Shown: positions 6,038 to 15,197, counted from the stretch's first letter. The stretch is DNA of 64,000 bases from Spartobacteria bacterium (GCA_003167365.1 PMTM01000021.1:1-64000); one strand, 5' to 3'. Program-made: numbers and translations. The notes: generated by a model not told the origin, from the letters alone.

Positions 6038-7138
6038 TCAGAGAGCGATTGCGCGTCGAACAGCTTCAGGATTCGCCGCCACCGGTGCAAGATCGACAAC
6101 ATCTTTTGCAACTGCATCGGGGTCTTTCAGTCCGTGTCCGGTCACAGTGCAGATGATGCGGCTGCCGGGCGGGATTTTCTCGAATGAATACGCGCCGTCC
6201 TTCGAATCGCAGCTCTTGAAAAATCCGGCGATGGAAGCGGCACTCGCCGGCTCAACAAAGATACCTTCGTTCCGGGCAAGCCAACGCTGTGCATCAAGAA
6301 TCTCCTCGTCGGTTACCACATCGACAGCGCCGTGTGATTCGTCGATCGCGGCGCGAGCTTGTTTCCAACTCGCTGGATTCCCGATGCGTATGGCCGAAGC
6401 GATTGTCTCCGGTTTCTCGACGACACGGTTGTGAAAGATGGGTGCCGCGCCGGCGGCTTGAAAACCAATCATCGCGGGCAGCTTTGTCGATCTTCTACTC
6501 CCGTGATATTCGCGATAGCCGGCCCAGTACGCAGTGAGATTTCCCGCGTTGCCCAGAGGCAATAGTTGCAGATCGGGCGCATCTCCCAAAAGATCGACAA
6601 TCTCGAATGCTGCTGTTTTTTGTCCGGCGATACGATCCGGATTGATTGAGTTCACAATCGCGAAGTCATTGTCTTCGCCAATCTCGCGCACAACGCGGAG
6701 CGCGTCGTCGAAGTTGCCATCAATCGCGACGATTTTTGCGCCGTAGGCAACTGCCTGCAGCAATTTGCCCCGCGCGATTTTTCCCGCGGGCAGAACGACC
6801 ACGCACGAAATTCCCGCGCGCGCAGCGTACGCCGCCGCGGAGGCGGATGTGTTTCCGGTCGATGCGCAAATCAACGCGCGCGTGTTGCGTTCGACCGCTT
6901 TTGAAACCGCGACCGTCATCCCGCGATCTTTGAACGAGCCGGTCGGGTTGACGCCTTCGTTTTTGATAAAAACTTCGCAGTCGCGTCCGACCTTTTTACT
7001 TAGGCGCGCGGAGGACAGAAGCGGCGTATTTCCCTCACCCAGCGAAATGATCGGCGTGCTTTCCGAGACCGGGAGAAAAGCACGATAGCGCGCGATTACT
7101 CCCCTGCTCTGCTCCAGATTTGGTTCGTTGATCGACAT
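6038..7138 (-). CDS. thrC: Threonine synthase
   Basis: This PLP-dependent enzyme turns O-phosphohomoserine into threonine. The 366-residue protein carries NPTGSFKDRGMTVAVSKA, where the Lys forms the Schiff base, followed by CASTGNTSASAAAYAARAGI. The phosphate-binding loop appears as PLGNAGNLTAYWAGYREY. This matches the shorter (ThrC type 2, fold type II) enzymes rather than the long E. coli form. The ATG at 7138 is clear. It is followed by lysC on the same strand and diverges from the dehydrogenase fusion gene across an 84-bp gap that must hold both promoters. Confidence 0.95.
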   Translation of the reverse strand: MSINEPNLEQSRGVIARYRAFLPVSESTPIISLGEGNTPLLSSARLSKKVGRDCEVFIKNEGVNPTGSFKDRGMTVAVSKAVERNTRALICASTGNTSASAAAYAARAGISCVVVLPAGKIARGKLLQAVAYGAKIVAIDGNFDDALRVVREIGEDNDFAIVNSINPDRIAGQKTAAFEIVDLLGDAPDLQLLPLGNAGNLTAYWAGYREYHGSRRSTKLPAMIGFQAAGAAPIFHNRVVEKPETIASAIRIGNPASWKQARAAIDESHGAVDVVTDEEILDAQRWLARNEGIFVEPASAASIAGFFKSCDSKDGAYSFEKIPPGSRIICTVTGHGLKDPDAVAKDVVDLAPVAANPEAVRRAIAL

Positions 7139-7222
7139 TTGGAAAGGCCTTGGCCAAGGGTGGCTGAATCTTTTTCCTTTAGCAACGCGCCGTCGCGGCT
7201 ATTCATACAAGGTCGACATCGT

Positions 7223-10200
7223 ATGCCAGCGCTAAGCAAAGAAGACAAACTTCGCCTCCTTACCACGCTCCTCGAAAGCCGCCACGCGGATTTACGCGAG
7301 CAGAATTTGAATCGCCAGGGCAAAGGCCACTTCCACGTCTCCGGGATGGGACACGAAGCGCTCGCGGGCATTTCGATGCAGATGGAGCCGGACGATTACA
7401 TCGTCCCGTATTATCGTGATCGCGGTCTTGTTCTTGGCCGTGGCCTAACAACGCGACAATTGGCGCTCGAGTATTTCGCAAAGCGCGATACTGGGAGCGG
7501 CGGGCGCATGATGCCGTCGCATTACAGCGACGCGAACCTGCACATTTGGAGCGTGCCGACGCCGACCGGTTCACAGCTGTTACCCGCGTGCGGGATGGCC
7601 TGGGGCATGAAGCTCGACGGCAAAAAGAATTTCGTCGTCACTACAGTGGGCGATGCGGCTACGCGACAGGGCGATTTTTTTGAGGCGGTTTGTTTTGCGA
7701 AGGAAAAGAAGCTGCCGGTCTTGTTTGTCGTTGAAGACAACGCTTATGGGATCAGCAGTCCGACCCGAAAAATTAATCCCCTCGCTCTCGATGTATTGCA
7801 GCCGAGCGACTGGCACCACATCGAAGGTCAGCAGGTCCAGGAAATTTACGATGCCGTGTCCGAGGCGATCGGCAAAATCCGCGCTGGCAACGGCCCGGTT
7901 TTTTTCTGGGTCAAGATGGAACGTCTCTCTAGTCACACCAGCTCCGACGATCAGAAACTTTATCGCAGCGCCGAAGAACTCGAAGCTTTGGATAAAGGCG
8001 ATCCGCTGAAATGCTGGAAGGATCAGTTGATCGCAGATGGTGTCATCACCGCGGAAGATTTTGCCAAGCTCGACAACGAGATCAAGGAACGCATTCGTCA
8101 GGAATATGCCGAAGCGGAGAAAGCGGAAGATCCCTCGGCGGATGAAGTCCAGGCAAATGTCACCGCACCGCTGCCGGAACTCGCTGATGAAATTTTGCCT
8201 CCGGGAAAATATCGGATCGGCGATACGGTGAATAAAACGTTACGCGCCGGCCTGGAAAAGGATCCGCGGCGCGTAATTTTCGGGGAAGATGTCGAGGACC
8301 CGAAAGGCGGTGTTTTTCGACTCACGCAAAAGCTTTCGACCGAATTTCCGAAACAAGTTTTCAATTCGCCGCTGGCCGAATCGACCATTCTCGGCGTTGC
8401 TTGCGGCCTCGCCGCTTATGGGAAGCGCCCGGTCTTTGAATTGCAGTTCATCGATTTTATTTATCCGGGTCTCAACCAGCTTGTCACCAACATCGCGGCA
8501 TTGCGCTGGCGCTCATTCGGGAACTGGAAATGTCCGGCAGTGTTCTACGCGCCTTACGGAGCGTATTTGCCCGGCGGAAGTTTGTGGCACAGCCAGGCCA
8601 ATGAATCTGTCTTCGCGCATTATCCCGGCCTCTACGTCGTCGTTCCGAGCACACCCGAAGACGCTGCCGGTTTGCTTTGGACCGCGATGCATTGCGAAGA
8701 CCCGGTCCTTTTTCTCATCCCGAAGCACATGTTTTGGGCGGAACGCGAATCTGCCGAACCGATTCGGGCAGTCCCGTTAGGTCGTGCGCGCACTCATCGC
8801 AGCGGTTCCGATCTCACGCTGGTCGCGTGGGGCAACACAGTCGAGAAATCTTTGGAAGCGCTCGCCACGATCCCTAATGAAACCAGCGTCGAGTTGATCG
8901 ATCTCCGCTCCATTGTGCCGTGGGACAAAGCGGCCATCGAAGAATCGGTGCGCAAAACCGGTCGACTCGTGATCGTGCAAGAAGACACGGAAAATTGCAG
9001 CGTCGGTCAGATGATCATCACGCACATCGCATCGCAGCCGGACCTTTGGAACGCGATGATTAGCCCGCCGATTCTGGTCAGCAAGGGCAACGTCATGATC
9101 GGTTACAATCCGATCTATGAATACGCGGCCTTGCCGGACGTTGAGCGGATCGTGGCTGCAATTCGGAAATCGGTTTCGACCAAAGGTGAACACAGAGTTG
9201 TAGCCGGGGTCGGTGACCCCGGCCGCACGAGCGTGATGGTTGAATCAGCGAAGCCGGGGTCACCGACCCCGGCTACAGCGAAGATCGAGATGAGCAAACA
9301 GCATATGCAAAGCATCACCGTGCCGATGATGGGCGAAGGTATTCGCGCCGCGAAAATAGTTTCGTTACTCAAAAAACCGGGCGACCCGATCGCGCACGAC
9401 GATGCGCTCTGCGAAGTCGAAACCGATAAGGCAGTTTATCCAATCGAATCATCTTTCGCCGGGATAATGGGCGAGTGGAAAACCAAGGTCGGCGACACAG
9501 TCGAGATTGGTCGGGAGCTCGGCACGATTCTTACCGGCGAAACCGTGCAAACTGTAGCCGGGGTCGTCGACCCCGGCCGTACGGAATCGAGTTCCCACTT
9601 ACCGGAGTCGACGACTCCGGCTACAGCCACGATCGAGCCCGCGCTCTCGGCCACGATCACACGCAAACTCAGCCGCGTTATTCCCGCCAATTTGCAAATC
9701 GATGCCCGCTGGAACTCGATTCGCAAAGCGCGGGACTCAGCGAAAAAGAAAAACGGAAAGAACGCGCCCTCTCCTTCAGTCATGATCGCGTGGGCGGTTG
9801 TGCGCGCGATGGAAAATCACGCACCCTTCCGCCGTCTTGCCCTTGACGACGATCGCATTGTCGAAAATAGCGATTTCGATCTCGGCATGGCCGTCGCACT
9901 CGCTGGCGACCGGCTCGCCACCGCCGTTATCACGGCCGCAAACAAAAAATCATGGCCGGAGTTCGTAAAAGTTTACACCGCCGCCGTCGAAGCCACGCGC
10001 ACCGGTCGCGTTGATGCGATGAACGCACCGGTCGTCATCAGCAGCCTCGGCGCATTCGGCGTGCGCGCAGCCGCGCCGATCGTCGTTCCGCCGTCGGTCG
10101 GAACTTTGTTTGTCGGCACAGCTCATCGTGAGATCCTTCTAAACGGAAAGAAAGATGAGACGGCTGAAGTCATCACGCTCTCGCTCACGTTCGATCATCG

Positions 10201-10312
10201 CGTCGTCAACGGCGCCGGCGCAGCCAACTTCGTCCACGACGTTAAGGAACAAATCGAGAGCTTCAAGATTCCAACTGCAAGCAAGCGTGAAGTTGCTAAG
10301 CCCGGGGCATAG
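7223..10312 (+). CDS. Fused 2-oxoacid dehydrogenase: E1 alpha-E1 beta-lipoyl-E2
   Basis: This single chain of 1029 residues holds nearly a whole pyruvate/branched-chain 2-oxoacid dehydrogenase. Residues 1-310 are E1 alpha, with the thiamine diphosphate motif GDAATRQGDFFEA...EDN. Residues 325-650 are E1 beta (VIFGEDVEDPKGGVF; SPLAESTILGVACGLA). Residues 694-770 are a lipoyl domain with the lipoyl lysine in ETDKAV (about Lys736). Residues 815-1020 are an E2 acyltransferase domain with DHRVVNG (His about 992). No peripheral-subunit-binding domain is visible. The two linkers (about 659-685 and 777-801) are encoded by palindromic DNA repeats. I chose ATG 7223 because E1 alpha homology begins there; an upstream TTG adds 28 poor residues. 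E3 is not in the window. The acyl substrate (pyruvate or branched-chain) is not decided by sequence. Confidence 0.9.
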   Translation: MPALSKEDKLRLLTTLLESRHADLREQNLNRQGKGHFHVSGMGHEALAGISMQMEPDDYIVPYYRDRGLVLGRGLTTRQLALEYFAKRDTGSGGRMMPSHYSDANLHIWSVPTPTGSQLLPACGMAWGMKLDGKKNFVVTTVGDAATRQGDFFEAVCFAKEKKLPVLFVVEDNAYGISSPTRKINPLALDVLQPSDWHHIEGQQVQEIYDAVSEAIGKIRAGNGPVFFWVKMERLSSHTSSDDQKLYRSAEELEALDKGDPLKCWKDQLIADGVITAEDFAKLDNEIKERIRQEYAEAEKAEDPSADEVQANVTAPLPELADEILPPGKYRIGDTVNKTLRAGLEKDPRRVIFGEDVEDPKGGVFRLTQKLSTEFPKQVFNSPLAESTILGVACGLAAYGKRPVFELQFIDFIYPGLNQLVTNIAALRWRSFGNWKCPAVFYAPYGAYLPGGSLWHSQANESVFAHYPGLYVVVPSTPEDAAGLLWTAMHCEDPVLFLIPKHMFWAERESAEPIRAVPLGRARTHRSGSDLTLVAWGNTVEKSLEALATIPNETSVELIDLRSIVPWDKAAIEESVRKTGRLVIVQEDTENCSVGQMIITHIASQPDLWNAMISPPILVSKGNVMIGYNPIYEYAALPDVERIVAAIRKSVSTKGEHRVVAGVGDPGRTSVMVESAKPGSPTPATAKIEMSKQHMQSITVPMMGEGIRAAKIVSLLKKPGDPIAHDDALCEVETDKAVYPIESSFAGIMGEWKTKVGDTVEIGRELGTILTGETVQTVAGVVDPGRTESSSHLPESTTPATATIEPALSATITRKLSRVIPANLQIDARWNSIRKARDSAKKKNGKNAPSPSVMIAWAVVRAMENHAPFRRLALDDDRIVENSDFDLGMAVALAGDRLATAVITAANKKSWPEFVKVYTAAVEATRTGRVDAMNAPVVISSLGAFGVRAAAPIVVPPSVGTLFVGTAHREILLNGKKDETAEVITLSLTFDHRVVNGAGAANFVHDVKEQIESFKIPTASKREVAKPGA
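9199..9277. repeat. Palindromic repeat pair inside a coding linker
   Basis: A 25-bp unit at 9199-9223 is the exact reverse complement of 9253-9277 (outer ends TGTAG and CTACA). Each unit is itself a palindrome around GGGGTC/GACCCC. The whole unit is read in frame as the linker between E1 beta and the lipoyl domain. A diverged second copy lies at 9553-9625 in the next linker. Confidence 0.9.
9553..9625. repeat. Palindromic repeat pair, second coding linker
   Basis: The left arm, 9553-9577 (TGTAGCCGGGGTCGTCGACC...), pairs with the inverted right arm at 9603-9625, with a GGGG-to-GAG difference between arms. It is the same family as 9199-9277 and is again in frame, coding for the Pro/Thr/Ser linker between the lipoyl and E2 domains. 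Two insertions of one family into the two inter-domain linkers of the same gene suggest that linkers tolerate these elements. Confidence 0.88.
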
Positions 10313-11840: not shown

Positions 11841-12605
11841 TCACTTCGCCCATTTGGGCGGGCGCTTTTCGTTGAAGGCCGCGATCCCTTCGCGGGCTTC
11901 GTCGGACTCGCGCGCCTTCATGTGATATTTTAGCGCAAGGTCGACATCTTCTTTTACGGACGACGACCAAAGTTCCTGGATCAATCTCTTGGTTTGCGCG
12001 AGCGCACCAGGCGCGCCTTGCAAAACTGATTGCGCGAATTTTTCCGCTTCGTTCATGACTTGATCGGGTGCGACTACACGATTGACCAAACCGATTTCGC
12101 GCGCTCGCTCCGCATCGATTAACTCGGAGCCGAACAGCAATTCGCGAATCTCGCGTTCGCGAACCTGCCGGCGCAGGAAGGTCATGACCAGTCCAGCCAC
12201 CAATCCGCGCCGCACTTCCGGGTAACCGATCTTCGTTCTCACGGCCGCGACGACGAAGTCACACGCCGACATGATGCCGGCTCCGCCCGCCACCGCCGCG
12301 CCGTGGACCGCGGCGATGGTGATGAGCCGCGTCTGATTAATGGCGATCAAAGTCTTTGCCACCATCTCCGCGGTCGCGTGAGCCTTCTTTTCATCAGCCG
12401 CTTCCTTCAAGTCCAAGCCGGTGCAAAAAGCCTGCCCAGCGCCGCGTAAAATCAAAATACGCTGCTGTTCGTCGCCGGCGGTGGCGTCAATCGCGGCAAT
12501 CAATTCGGTAAGCAATTCAATCGTGAGCGCGTTACGGCGCTCAGGACGATTCAACGTCAACGTCGTGATCTGGGGACTTTGCTTTTCGATCAGAACGATG
12601 GACAT
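11841..12605 (-). CDS. Enoyl-CoA hydratase/isomerase family protein
   Basis: This 254-residue crotonase-fold protein has the CoA-binding/oxyanion segments RGAGQAFCTGLDLKE and GAAVAGGAGIMSACDFVVA, and PEVRRGLVAG where a catalytic Glu is expected. It resembles the methylglutaconyl-CoA hydratase-type members of the family. Its neighbours are HMG-CoA lyase, 79 bp away and divergent, and an acyl-CoA carboxyltransferase, so a role in leucine breakdown (3-methylglutaconyl-CoA to HMG-CoA) is a reasonable inference. Crotonases are hard to assign by sequence, and general beta-oxidation remains possible. Confidence 0.87.
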   Translation of the reverse strand: MSIVLIEKQSPQITTLTLNRPERRNALTIELLTELIAAIDATAGDEQQRILILRGAGQAFCTGLDLKEAADEKKAHATAEMVAKTLIAINQTRLITIAAVHGAAVAGGAGIMSACDFVVAAVRTKIGYPEVRRGLVAGLVMTFLRRQVREREIRELLFGSELIDAERAREIGLVNRVVAPDQVMNEAEKFAQSVLQGAPGALAQTKRLIQELWSSSVKEDVDLALKYHMKARESDEAREGIAAFNEKRPPKWAK

Positions 12606-12684: not shown

Positions 12685-13563
12685 ATGGAATCCATCAAGC
12701 TCATCGAGTGTCCGCGCGACGCGTGGCAGGGACTTAAGCGTCAGATTCCGACCCAGCGAAAGGTGGAATACCTGCGCGGGTTGGTAGCTGCGGGCTTTCG
12801 GCATATCGACGTAGCGAGCTTCGTCTCGCCCAAAGCTGTGCCGCAGATGGCCGATAGCGAAGAGATGCTCGAGCAAGTCGGGTCGCTCAAGGACGTTGAA
12901 ATCATAGGCATTGTCGTTAATGAAAAAGGCGTGGAGCGCGCGATTGCGACCGGGTTGGTCAGCACGCTCGGCTATCCCTGTTCAATCTCGGAGACGTTTC
13001 TACTCAGAAACCAGAACCAATCGCCGGAGGAGAACCAGGCCGTGCTGAAAAGGATCAAAGATCGAGCGGACGAAGCCGGACTGGCAATGGTCGCTTACAT
13101 TTCAATGGCATTCGGTAATCCTTACGGCGATCCGTGGAGCGAAGAGAAAGTCGCGGAGGCCGCGAGAACTATCGCAGGCATGGGCATTAGCACCCTCTCA
13201 ATCGCGGATACGGTAGGAGCGGCCGAGCCGGAACTGGTTCATCGCGTGCTGGCGGCGGTCTTACGCGACTGCGGTGAATGCGAGATGGGCGTTCACATGC
13301 ACAGCACGCGCGCGGGAGCAACGCCGAAAGTCCTTGCCGCTTATGACGCAGGGTGCCGGCGTTTCGATGCCGCCATTGGTGGACTTGGCGGTTGTCCCTT
13401 TGCGCAAGATGAGCTTGTCGGGAATGTGCCAACGGAAGAAGTTTTGCGTGCGTTGCAGCAGCGCGGGCTGAAGCTGCCGCTGGAGGGCCGACTTTCGGCG
13501 GTCGCAGCGATGAATGCCGCAATCACTGACGAATTCTCGGGTGACAAAGCGCGAGGTGATTAA
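12685..13563 (+). CDS. Hydroxymethylglutaryl-CoA lyase
   Basis: This enzyme splits HMG-CoA into acetoacetate and acetyl-CoA, the last step of leucine breakdown. The 292-residue TIM-barrel protein has IECPRDAWQGL (metal-binding Asp; usual form VGPRDGLQ), the HMHSTRA metal-binding histidines, and GLGGCPFAQ with the active-site Cys of the family signature. I placed the start at ATG 12685, where homology begins; the frame stays open upstream but that part is antisense to the hydratase gene. It converges on the carboxyltransferase gene with a 4-bp overlap of stops. The IEC in place of VEVG marks a divergent subgroup. Confidence 0.88.
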   Translation: MESIKLIECPRDAWQGLKRQIPTQRKVEYLRGLVAAGFRHIDVASFVSPKAVPQMADSEEMLEQVGSLKDVEIIGIVVNEKGVERAIATGLVSTLGYPCSISETFLLRNQNQSPEENQAVLKRIKDRADEAGLAMVAYISMAFGNPYGDPWSEEKVAEAARTIAGMGISTLSIADTVGAAEPELVHRVLAAVLRDCGECEMGVHMHSTRAGATPKVLAAYDAGCRRFDAAIGGLGGCPFAQDELVGNVPTEEVLRALQQRGLKLPLEGRLSAVAAMNAAITDEFSGDKARGD

Positions 13564-15197
13564 ACCTGAATCACGCCGGTGTGAAAGCGCGCCTTCGGCA
13601 TCGGGCGCGACGTGAATTGTAGCAAGCGCATGAGAACGTTGCGAGTCTCGTGCGGTTGAATGATGGCATCGACCCAACCCCGCGCGGCGCCGTAGCGGAT
13701 GTCGGTTTGCTCTTCGTAGTTTTGCTTCACTTTGGCGCGAAGCTGTTCGAGATCTTCCTGCGAGGTTTTCTTTTCACTGCGTTCGCTCGCCCGCGCGAGA
13801 ATGGAGAAGACGGTGTCGGAAGCTTGGGCGGCGCCCATGACGGCGTAACGCGCATTCGGCCACGCCACAATAAAACGCGGATCGTAGGCCTTGCCGCACA
13901 TGGCGTAATTTCCGGCGCCGAACGATCCACCGACCACGACCGTGATTTTCGGGACAACGGAATTGCTCACGGCGCTTACGAGTTTCGCGCCACTGCGAAT
14001 GATTCCGCTTTGCTCGGCATCGCGACCGACCATGAAACCGGTGACGTCCTGAAAGAAAACGATCGGCAGTCCGTCTTGATTGCAATCCATGATAAAGCGC
14101 GCCGCTTTGTCGGCGCTATCGGCGTAAATCACGCCACCCATTTGGATGCCTTCTTTCTTGGTGCGCACTTGCAAGCGCTGGTTCGCGACAATTCCGACCG
14201 GGCGCCCGCCGATTCGCGCATAGGTAGTGACGATAGTTTTGCCGTAGTCGGCTTTGTATTCGTCCATCGAGTTTGCATCGATGATCGATGCCAGCAGGTC
14301 GCGCGCGTCGTACTGTTTTTGGCCATCGAAGCTGATCAAATCGTAAACCGCATCCGGACCTTTCGCCGCTCGCGGCAATTTTGCGCTCTTGGATTTCTCA
14401 GATGTTTTTGCGGCTTCCGCTTCCGGTAGCAGCGCGACGAGCGAACGAAGTCGCTTCAGACACGACGGGTCGTCCCTCTCATAAAAATCTACGGTGCCAC
14501 TGACTTCAGCGTGCATCCGAGCGCCGCCCAATTCCTCGGCATCTACAACTTGTCCGATGGCGGCTTTGACGAGGGATGGACCAGCGAGATACAAACCGCT
14601 TCCCTCCGTCATTAGAACCTTGTCGCACAAGACTGGAAGATAGGCGCCACCGGCGACACAATTTCCCATGATGGCGGCATATTGCGGAACGCCAGCCGCG
14701 GAAATCACGGAGTTGTTTCGAAAAATTCGTCCAAAATCATCTTCATCAGGAAAAATCTCATCCTGCAACGGCAGGAAAACACCGGCAGAATCGACCAGAT
14801 AGATAATGGGCAGCGAACATTCGAAAGCGATGCGTTGGGCGCGAAGTAATTTTTTTGCGGTCTGCGGAAAGAAGGCGCCTGCTTTAACGGACGCGTCATT
14901 GGCAATGATCATGCAGGGAACTCCCGCGACTTCGCCGATCCCCGCGACCGCGCCTGCCGCCGTAATCTTCCCCCACTCTTCGTACATTTTGTAGGCGGCC
15001 CAGATTCCGATCTCGAAGAACGCCGCGTCCTTGTCGAGCAAATGACTGATGCGCTCCCGCGCCGGCAAACGCCCCAATTTGCGCTGTCGATCCAATCCGG
15101 CTTTGCCGCCGCCTTCACGCAGCACAGCTTCTTGTCTCATGATCCCGACGCAATGATCGCGCAGCGTGACGGTGGTGGAGATCGATGGACGAGACAT
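13560..15197 (-). CDS. Acyl-CoA carboxylase carboxyltransferase (MccB-like)
   Basis: This 545-residue biotin-dependent carboxyltransferase beta subunit transfers CO2 from biotin to an acyl-CoA. Two crotonase-like halves are visible: GKLTA-type start RERISHLLDKDAAFFEIG, the IYLVDSAGVFLPLQDEIFPD loop typical of 3-methylcrotonyl-CoA carboxylase, then VFFQDVTGFMVGRDAEQSGIIRSGAK and GGSFGAGNYAMCGKAYDPRF in the second half. The sequence and its neighbours (hydratase, HMG-CoA lyase) favour methylcrotonyl-CoA carboxylase. The biotin-carrying alpha subunit is not in the window. A palindromic intergenic repeat lies just upstream of the start. Confidence 0.9.
   Translation of the reverse strand: MSRPSISTTVTLRDHCVGIMRQEAVLREGGGKAGLDRQRKLGRLPARERISHLLDKDAAFFEIGIWAAYKMYEEWGKITAAGAVAGIGEVAGVPCMIIANDASVKAGAFFPQTAKKLLRAQRIAFECSLPIIYLVDSAGVFLPLQDEIFPDEDDFGRIFRNNSVISAAGVPQYAAIMGNCVAGGAYLPVLCDKVLMTEGSGLYLAGPSLVKAAIGQVVDAEELGGARMHAEVSGTVDFYERDDPSCLKRLRSLVALLPEAEAAKTSEKSKSAKLPRAAKGPDAVYDLISFDGQKQYDARDLLASIIDANSMDEYKADYGKTIVTTYARIGGRPVGIVANQRLQVRTKKEGIQMGGVIYADSADKAARFIMDCNQDGLPIVFFQDVTGFMVGRDAEQSGIIRSGAKLVSAVSNSVVPKITVVVGGSFGAGNYAMCGKAYDPRFIVAWPNARYAVMGAAQASDTVFSILARASERSEKKTSQEDLEQLRAKVKQNYEEQTDIRYGAARGWVDAIIQPHETRNVLMRLLQFTSRPMPKARFHTGVIQV

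Follow-up and report, generated by a model that had tools for sequence, protein, structure and literature searches.

A single gene at positions 7223-10312 of a 64,000-nucleotide stretch from a Spartobacteria bacterium (GCA_003167365.1 PMTM01000021.1:1-64000; the window, below, means this whole stretch) encodes an E1 alpha module, an E1 beta module, a lipoyl domain and an E2 acyltransferase catalytic domain in one polypeptide. We consider it probable that the product is the single-chain E1-E2 of a branched-chain 2-oxoacid dehydrogenase (BCKDH). For a long time 2-oxoacid dehydrogenase complexes were believed to follow a common design, with a core of E2 to which E1 and E3 are docked via a peripheral subunit-binding domain (PSBD). 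OdhA of Actinobacteria is one exception to this core-and-docking plan and the fused protein, if our reading is true, would be a second, independently evolved in Verrucomicrobiota. A normally giant complex may then be built in an unusual way in this soil bacterium and many of its relatives, and the fused protein would allow a direct test of whether active-site coupling and the use of E3 depend on the docking domain and a large core. The gene and its parts are as follows, with the evidence for each.

7223..10312, + strand: fused gene, E1 alpha-E1 beta-lipoyl-E2 catalytic domain, 1029 amino acids plus stop; open frame and full-length one-frame orthologues
7280..8134, + strand: E1 alpha module (PF00676, residues 20-304); Pfam, alignment to the Thermus BCKDH E1 alpha, invariance and motif comparison
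8222..9172, + strand: E1 beta module (Transket_pyr 334-502, Transketolase_C 520-604); Pfam, PDB alignment to 1um9_B and fold match
9179..9298, + strand: linker 1 (around residues 653-692); hypervariable, disordered according to the model
9311..9529, + strand: lipoyl domain (residues 697-769); Pfam
9539..9637, + strand: linker 2 (around residues 773-805); PSBD absent, disordered according to the model
9647..10264, + strand: E2 acyltransferase catalytic domain (residues 809-1014); Pfam
10193..10213, + strand: E2 motif DHRVVNG (D991, H992, N996); alignment rows and phylum members
10214..10309, + strand: C-terminal helix and short tail (..IESFKIP..) without P..LL; no such tail in 74 fused proteins

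The original prediction had read four enzyme modules in one frame of 1029 codons without internal stop, and a Pfam search places all four: E1_dh at residues 20-304 (7.7e-52), Transket_pyr at 334-502 (3.3e-29), Transketolase_C at 520-604 (2.1e-22), Biotin_lipoyl at 697-769 (7.1e-17) and 2-oxoacid_dh at 809-1014 (8e-32), all far over the cut-off and accompanied by just one weak related match. A TTG start at 7139, 84 bases upstream, would lengthen the frame and was rejected because relatives begin at the same ATG; in several of them the frame is closed within 1-4 codons 5' of it. An AlphaFold model calculated from 29 orthologues (mean pLDDT, the predicted local distance difference test, 81.9) has all modules folded, with values <50 over residues 656-692 and 773-800, the two linkers that flank the lipoyl domain. 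The E1 part has the composition of an alpha2-beta2-type E1, that is E1_dh, Transket_pyr and Transketolase_C together with the motif for thiamine diphosphate (ThDP) and the catalytic Glu and His. The E1 alpha module contains GDAATRQ..EDN (ThDP), GGRMMPSH (BCKDH-type) and SSHTSSDD, which resembles a phosphorylation loop. E1 beta homology reaches about residue 650 and includes the catalytic Glu386 (PLAE) and His456 (WHSQ), present in 75 and 74 of 75 aligned rows of the public set, respectively; one orthologue, L014, has Leu at the histidine position (SLWLSQ). The lipoyl lysine K736 lies in ETDKA (9428-9430) and is Lys in every one of the 75 rows.

The original prediction had left room for an assembly error and for relatives with separate subunits and stops at the junctions, and the search of Verrucomicrobiota genomes that it proposed found neither among the orthologues. 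In the window's own family the gene is full length in one frame in 24 of 37 genomes, in pieces in 9, and without an orthologue in 4. The best 80 loci of a genome-collection scan, the one scan by which occurrence outside the phylum was assessed, all belong to Verrucomicrobiota, namely Chthoniobacterales, some of them named Candidatus Udaeobacter, and Opitutaceae (Opitutus, Lacunisphaera, Cephaloticoccus and Didemnitutus). Among them are 74 full-length public loci, 57-79% identical to the fused protein: 70 have no stop, in three the stops all lie past the E2 motif, and L072 has one at residue 84. A sample of 388 genomes spread evenly over the phylum gave 27 with the fused gene, as counted by match coverage and reading of the E2 motif, in seven families of a single class. 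Plasmid records covering >=80% of the query numbered 52, and the five with annotation that were examined have two or three separate genes each. That the frame is an assembly artefact or a chimeric contig has a negligible probability, since the same architecture recurs in many independently assembled genomes, single-contig ones included, at identities down to 47%; a chance frame was rejected on the same grounds, and nothing was found in favour of an artefact. In a maximum-likelihood tree of the E1 part all fused proteins form one clade, split from all others with a bootstrap of 100, which fits a single fusion event and, after it, vertical inheritance with losses. Outside the phylum, the most similar E1 is a 670-residue E1 alpha-beta of Streptomyces with 43% identity.

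The separate alpha, beta and E2 genes of the same genome are distant paralogues of the fused gene (24-36% identity in local matches). Its three separate E2s are those of C13, a pyruvate dehydrogenase (PDH) operon whose members pass the PDH equivalog cut-offs; of C9, SucB-like and adjoining the genome's only lipoamide dehydrogenase (E3, lpd), far from the fused gene; and of C24. The last belongs to a complete alpha/beta/E2 operon (G000:C24:203689-206757, L155) with a very divergent E1 (28% identity to the fused protein) that falls short of every PDH cut-off and is the most divergent in the tree. Exactly these three E2s carry E3-binding domains and the fused protein does not: Pfam gave no E3_binding (PSBD) match in it, the genome scan none at its locus, and none was found in the distant members L140, L146 and L147. 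The fused chain is without an E3 and without the usual E3 docking site. The original prediction spoke of a self-contained complex with a fixed 1:1:1 stoichiometry, of which the 1:1 ratio of E1 alpha, E1 beta and lipoyl-E2 follows from the sequence; self-contained the protein is not, because the single E3 is encoded far away and the docking domain is missing.

The original prediction mentions neither the missing docking domain nor the E2 motif, C-terminus and repeat-containing linkers described below. The E2 domain itself is peculiar. Its active-site motif in the fused proteins reads DHR(K)xxNG instead of the standard DHRxxDG, with the Asp-His pair kept, whereas DG is retained in the genome's own separate E2s. 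The Asn is found in 74 of the 75 rows, the remaining one being a gap, and in every phylum member read. As the Streptomyces sister proteins also have it (DHTVLNG, DHTVFNG), it is probably older than the fusion. In E. coli E2o the Asp374-His375 pair matters most and Asp379Ala retains 9.5% activity (PMC5986005). Given that Asp379 aligns with the Asn of the fused proteins and that their Asp-His pair is kept, an active E2 is plausible by analogy. The C-terminus of most separate E2s is a tail of the ENPALLLV kind, although the C24 and L200 proteins end earlier (DPKKL, QPESL); the fused proteins have a P..LL tail in 0 of 74 cases and either end soon after the last helix (..IEGFKLPG) or continue without such a tail. 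In actinobacterial E2p, a change at the C-terminal tail restricts the protein to trimers (PMC10415282), and the missing tail argues against a cubic or icosahedral core here. One might read the altered motif, the short C-terminus and a domain score well under those of the separate E2s as signs of a catalytically dead E2, an appendage whose sole function would be structural or the presentation of the lipoyl group. We hold this to be highly improbable, as orthologues 47-82% identical have kept both the domain and Asp991-His992 and the E. coli substitution is still partly active.

The original prediction also held the order of the modules to be unfamiliar, and we found no description of E1 alpha-E1 beta-lipoyl-E2 in one chain in the literature searched, which comprised open-licence papers only and is weak evidence of absence. 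What appears new is the four-module order, as partial fusions of the same modules (OdhA/KGD, QncL, E1 alpha-beta) are already known. OdhA/KGD likewise has the catalytic domains of E1 and E2 on one polypeptide; OdhA, whose E2 goes no further than trimers, assembles into a homohexamer in which E1 forms dimers and E2 trimers (PMC10415282), whereas for the fused protein the oligomer is a prediction. In OdhA/KGD, however, the E2 comes first and is followed by a one-piece E1o, it acts on 2-oxoglutarate and a lipoyl domain is supplied in trans, whereas the fused protein begins with an E1 of the alpha-beta type and carries its lipoyl domain in cis. The OdhA/KGD profile NF008907 gave 52.8 bits against a cut-off of 878 and matched the E2 part alone, and the E2o-E1o (SucA-type) order is absent. 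The branched-chain E1s of Thermus, Pseudomonas and human share alpha/beta homology, ThDP and catalytic residues and GR.MP.H with the fused protein, but their complexes consist of separate subunits with a PSBD-containing E2 and a large core. QncL joins E1 beta, lipoyl domain and acyltransferase and works in natural-product synthesis (PMC6335953). In this group of hydroxyethyl transfer systems (QncN/QncL, NapB/NapD, SclQ), unlike the fused protein, E1 alpha is separate (QncN), the substrate is a ketose phosphate and the acceptor is an acyl carrier protein (ACP); among the open reading frames read around the fused gene we recognised no ACP or nonribosomal peptide synthetase (NRPS) genes. Proteins annotated as 'dehydrogenase E1 component subunit alpha/beta', such as that of Fuscovulum, are found on plasmids and also combine both E1 parts, but the E2 is a separate gene and the tree groups the fusion with PDH-like enzymes, which points to an independent origin.

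Several lines of evidence bear on the substrate. The closest solved E1 by sequence is the branched-chain E1 of Thermus, and the best Foldseek match is its beta subunit (TM 0.91 on the target). The E1 alpha of the fused protein has GR.MP.H where PDH E1 alphas, including the genome's own, have GGSMH. The sister E1 alpha-beta of Streptomyces is encoded in a cluster whose genes read as pristinamycin/virginiamycin-like, and isobutyryl-CoA is the suggested starter of such compounds. The PDH equivalogs TIGR03181, TIGR03182 and NF008854 scored 199.6, 154.5 and 213.4 bits against cut-offs of 411, 394 and 454, and a PDH assignment was rejected because these scores are about half of the cut-offs or less and because of the E1 alpha motif. 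The genes around the fused gene in the window include the following.

6038..7138, - strand: threonine-synthase-like gene, divergent (function read from the sequence by eye); found beside the fused gene in 38 of the 41 Chthoniobacterales loci whose upstream sequence was long enough
11841..12605, - strand: enoyl-CoA hydratase family, LiuC-like candidate; NCBIfam, kept near the fused gene
12688..13563, + strand: HMG-CoA lyase-like, LiuE-like candidate; Pfam HMGL-like, NCBIfam PRK05692 218.7 bits, just below the cut-off of 246
13560..15197, - strand: acyl-CoA carboxylase carboxyltransferase, LiuB/AtuC-like candidate; Pfam Carboxyl_trans 1.9e-138, kept in L110 and L111

Downstream of the branched-chain dehydrogenase, the Liu pathway of leucine and isovalerate degradation has hydratase, lyase and carboxylase steps (PMC9636800), to which the hydratase, HMG-CoA-lyase-like and carboxyltransferase genes of the window correspond, as judged with general profiles. 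In Opitutaceae a FadJ-like gene lies directly upstream of the fused gene in 19 of 23 loci, and the L110 neighbourhood holds FadJ-like, hydratase, AtuA, carboxyltransferase and acyl-CoA dehydrogenase genes. Because of the BCKDH-type E1 alpha motif, the leucine-degradation-like neighbours and the FadJ-like genes upstream in Opitutaceae, branched-chain acyl-CoA catabolism is the best-supported role of the fused protein.

Several points weigh against this picture of a single-chain branched-chain enzyme. The lyase and carboxyltransferase match general family models and not Liu-specific ones. Of the loci with 7 kb of downstream sequence, only 11 of 31 in Chthoniobacterales and 3 of 18 in Opitutaceae have at least one hydratase, lyase or carboxyltransferase gene close to the fused gene, and the flanks read of families f14, f21 and f23 showed none. 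The AlphaFold model is a monomer and uninformative on the arrangement between its domains. Finally, the C24 operon, with its alpha, beta and E2 genes and not a PDH, could be the real BCKDH. The fused protein would then act on another oxoacid (2-oxobutyrate, an aromatic or a medium-chain one) and leave the branched-chain role to C24. Indeed C24 is a complete separate set, the FadJ-like neighbours in Opitutaceae name no substrate, and in 38 of the 41 Chthoniobacterales loci genes resembling threonine synthase and aspartokinase lie divergent to the fused gene, which would fit 2-oxobutyrate. Yet it is the fused protein that has the BCKDH-type GR.MP.H and a branched-chain enzyme as its closest solved E1, while the C24 E1 stands out by its divergence, and we regard a different oxoacid as rather unlikely.

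A further alternative concerns the acceptor: the E2 domain might pass the acyl group to an ACP or another acceptor and not to coenzyme A (CoA), as in the loading of natural-product synthases. In the two Streptomyces loci (L170:14965-32100 and L171:14914-32096) the E1 alpha-beta adjoins a megasynthase that starts with lipoyl-E2-ACP-ketosynthase (KS), so that a lipoyl-E2 with the same Asn motif directly precedes ACP and KS. The cluster reads as streptogramin-like, and the arrangement suggests that the starter acyl group passes from the oxoacid to ACP without a free CoA ester. Loading of an ACP is established for the QncL/NapD-type E1 beta-lipoyl-E2 (PMC6335953, PMC7570522), and the loss of the PSBD would agree with it. 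The Streptomyces system resembles the fused protein in its sister E1 (43%) and the Asn but differs in that E1 and lipoyl-E2 are two proteins, ACP and KS follow the E2, and the linker resembles a PSBD on visual inspection. At the Verrucomicrobiota loci read, the neighbours belong to CoA-thioester catabolism and no ACP, KS or NRPS gene was recognised, which makes an ACP acceptor improbable. A ketose-phosphate substrate of the NapB/QncN kind was ranked below an oxoacid, given the streptogramin-like Streptomyces cluster and the CoA-catabolic neighbours in Verrucomicrobiota.

If the fused protein is a branched-chain E1-E2, two chains would pair into an E1 alpha2-beta2 unit, in which ThDP would decarboxylate the oxoacid and acylate the lipoyl lysine on that very chain. 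Carried by its linkers, the lipoyl domain would then swing over to the E2 domain, which as a trimer would hand the acyl group to CoA, and the genome's sole E3 would reoxidise the lipoyl group, reaching it without a PSBD. The acyl-CoA product would enter leucine-type degradation or beta-oxidation. Since E1 needs dimers, E2 needs trimers and the trimer-linking tail is absent, the likeliest particle would be a closed homohexamer of three E1 dimers and two E2 trimers as in OdhA, by analogy with which we predict that the E2 trimers are joined via the E1 dimers. We tentatively propose, with chances a little short of even, that a whole class possesses a single-chain E1-E2 off the classical core-and-docking plan, with no cubic core and no PSBD, the lipoyl domain in cis, a particle shape that follows from E1 dimers and E2 trimers, and an E3 that makes another contact, perhaps through a short linker motif, or acts freely. 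In one Opitutaceae branch (L097, L099, L101, L103, L105-L108, L110, L111, L112, L114, L118 and L121) linker 2, otherwise short and hypervariable among the relatives compared, has a short conserved motif, PSLQQLQ or PSLQELQ, at the place expected for a PSBD, where E3 or E1 may make contact.

A large share of both linkers consists of repetitive extragenic palindromic (REP) dimers.

9199..9277, + strand: GTAG-type REP dimer in frame, linker 1; arms 9199-9223 and 9253-9277, 25 nt, 100% complementary
9552..9626, + strand: second REP dimer in frame, linker 2; arms 9552-9576 and 9602-9626, 25 nt, 92% complementary

Genome-wide this REP family gave 50 matches with up to two mismatches (palindromes may count twice in this total) against one for a reversed control, and six of them lie inside the fused gene. 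The 75 fused genes read gave 26 inverted repeats, and 15 of these are located in the linkers, together about 8% of the protein. Related palindromes occupy the same linkers in L063, L067, L070, L075, L091 and L098, and another repeat does so in the Opitutaceae loci L115 and L123. The linkers appear to be tolerant landing sites for repeats; in-frame REPs within genes have already been described, in Opitutus terrae among others (PMC3733652).

Longer frames of 1110-1170 amino acids in other families were set aside as not the same fusion, as they read as E1 alpha-beta with a FabH/KASIII C-terminus. They represent a second fusion, E1 alpha-E1 beta-ketoacyl-ACP synthase III (FabH) of about 1110-1170 amino acids, found in additional families and classes of Verrucomicrobiota (L157:1632-5135, L195:313-3732, L196:1416-4817, L204:1851-6386 and L205:1283-5092), and that of L157 has a lipoyl domain as well. 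Its composition suggests that it primes branched-chain fatty acids directly from oxoacids.

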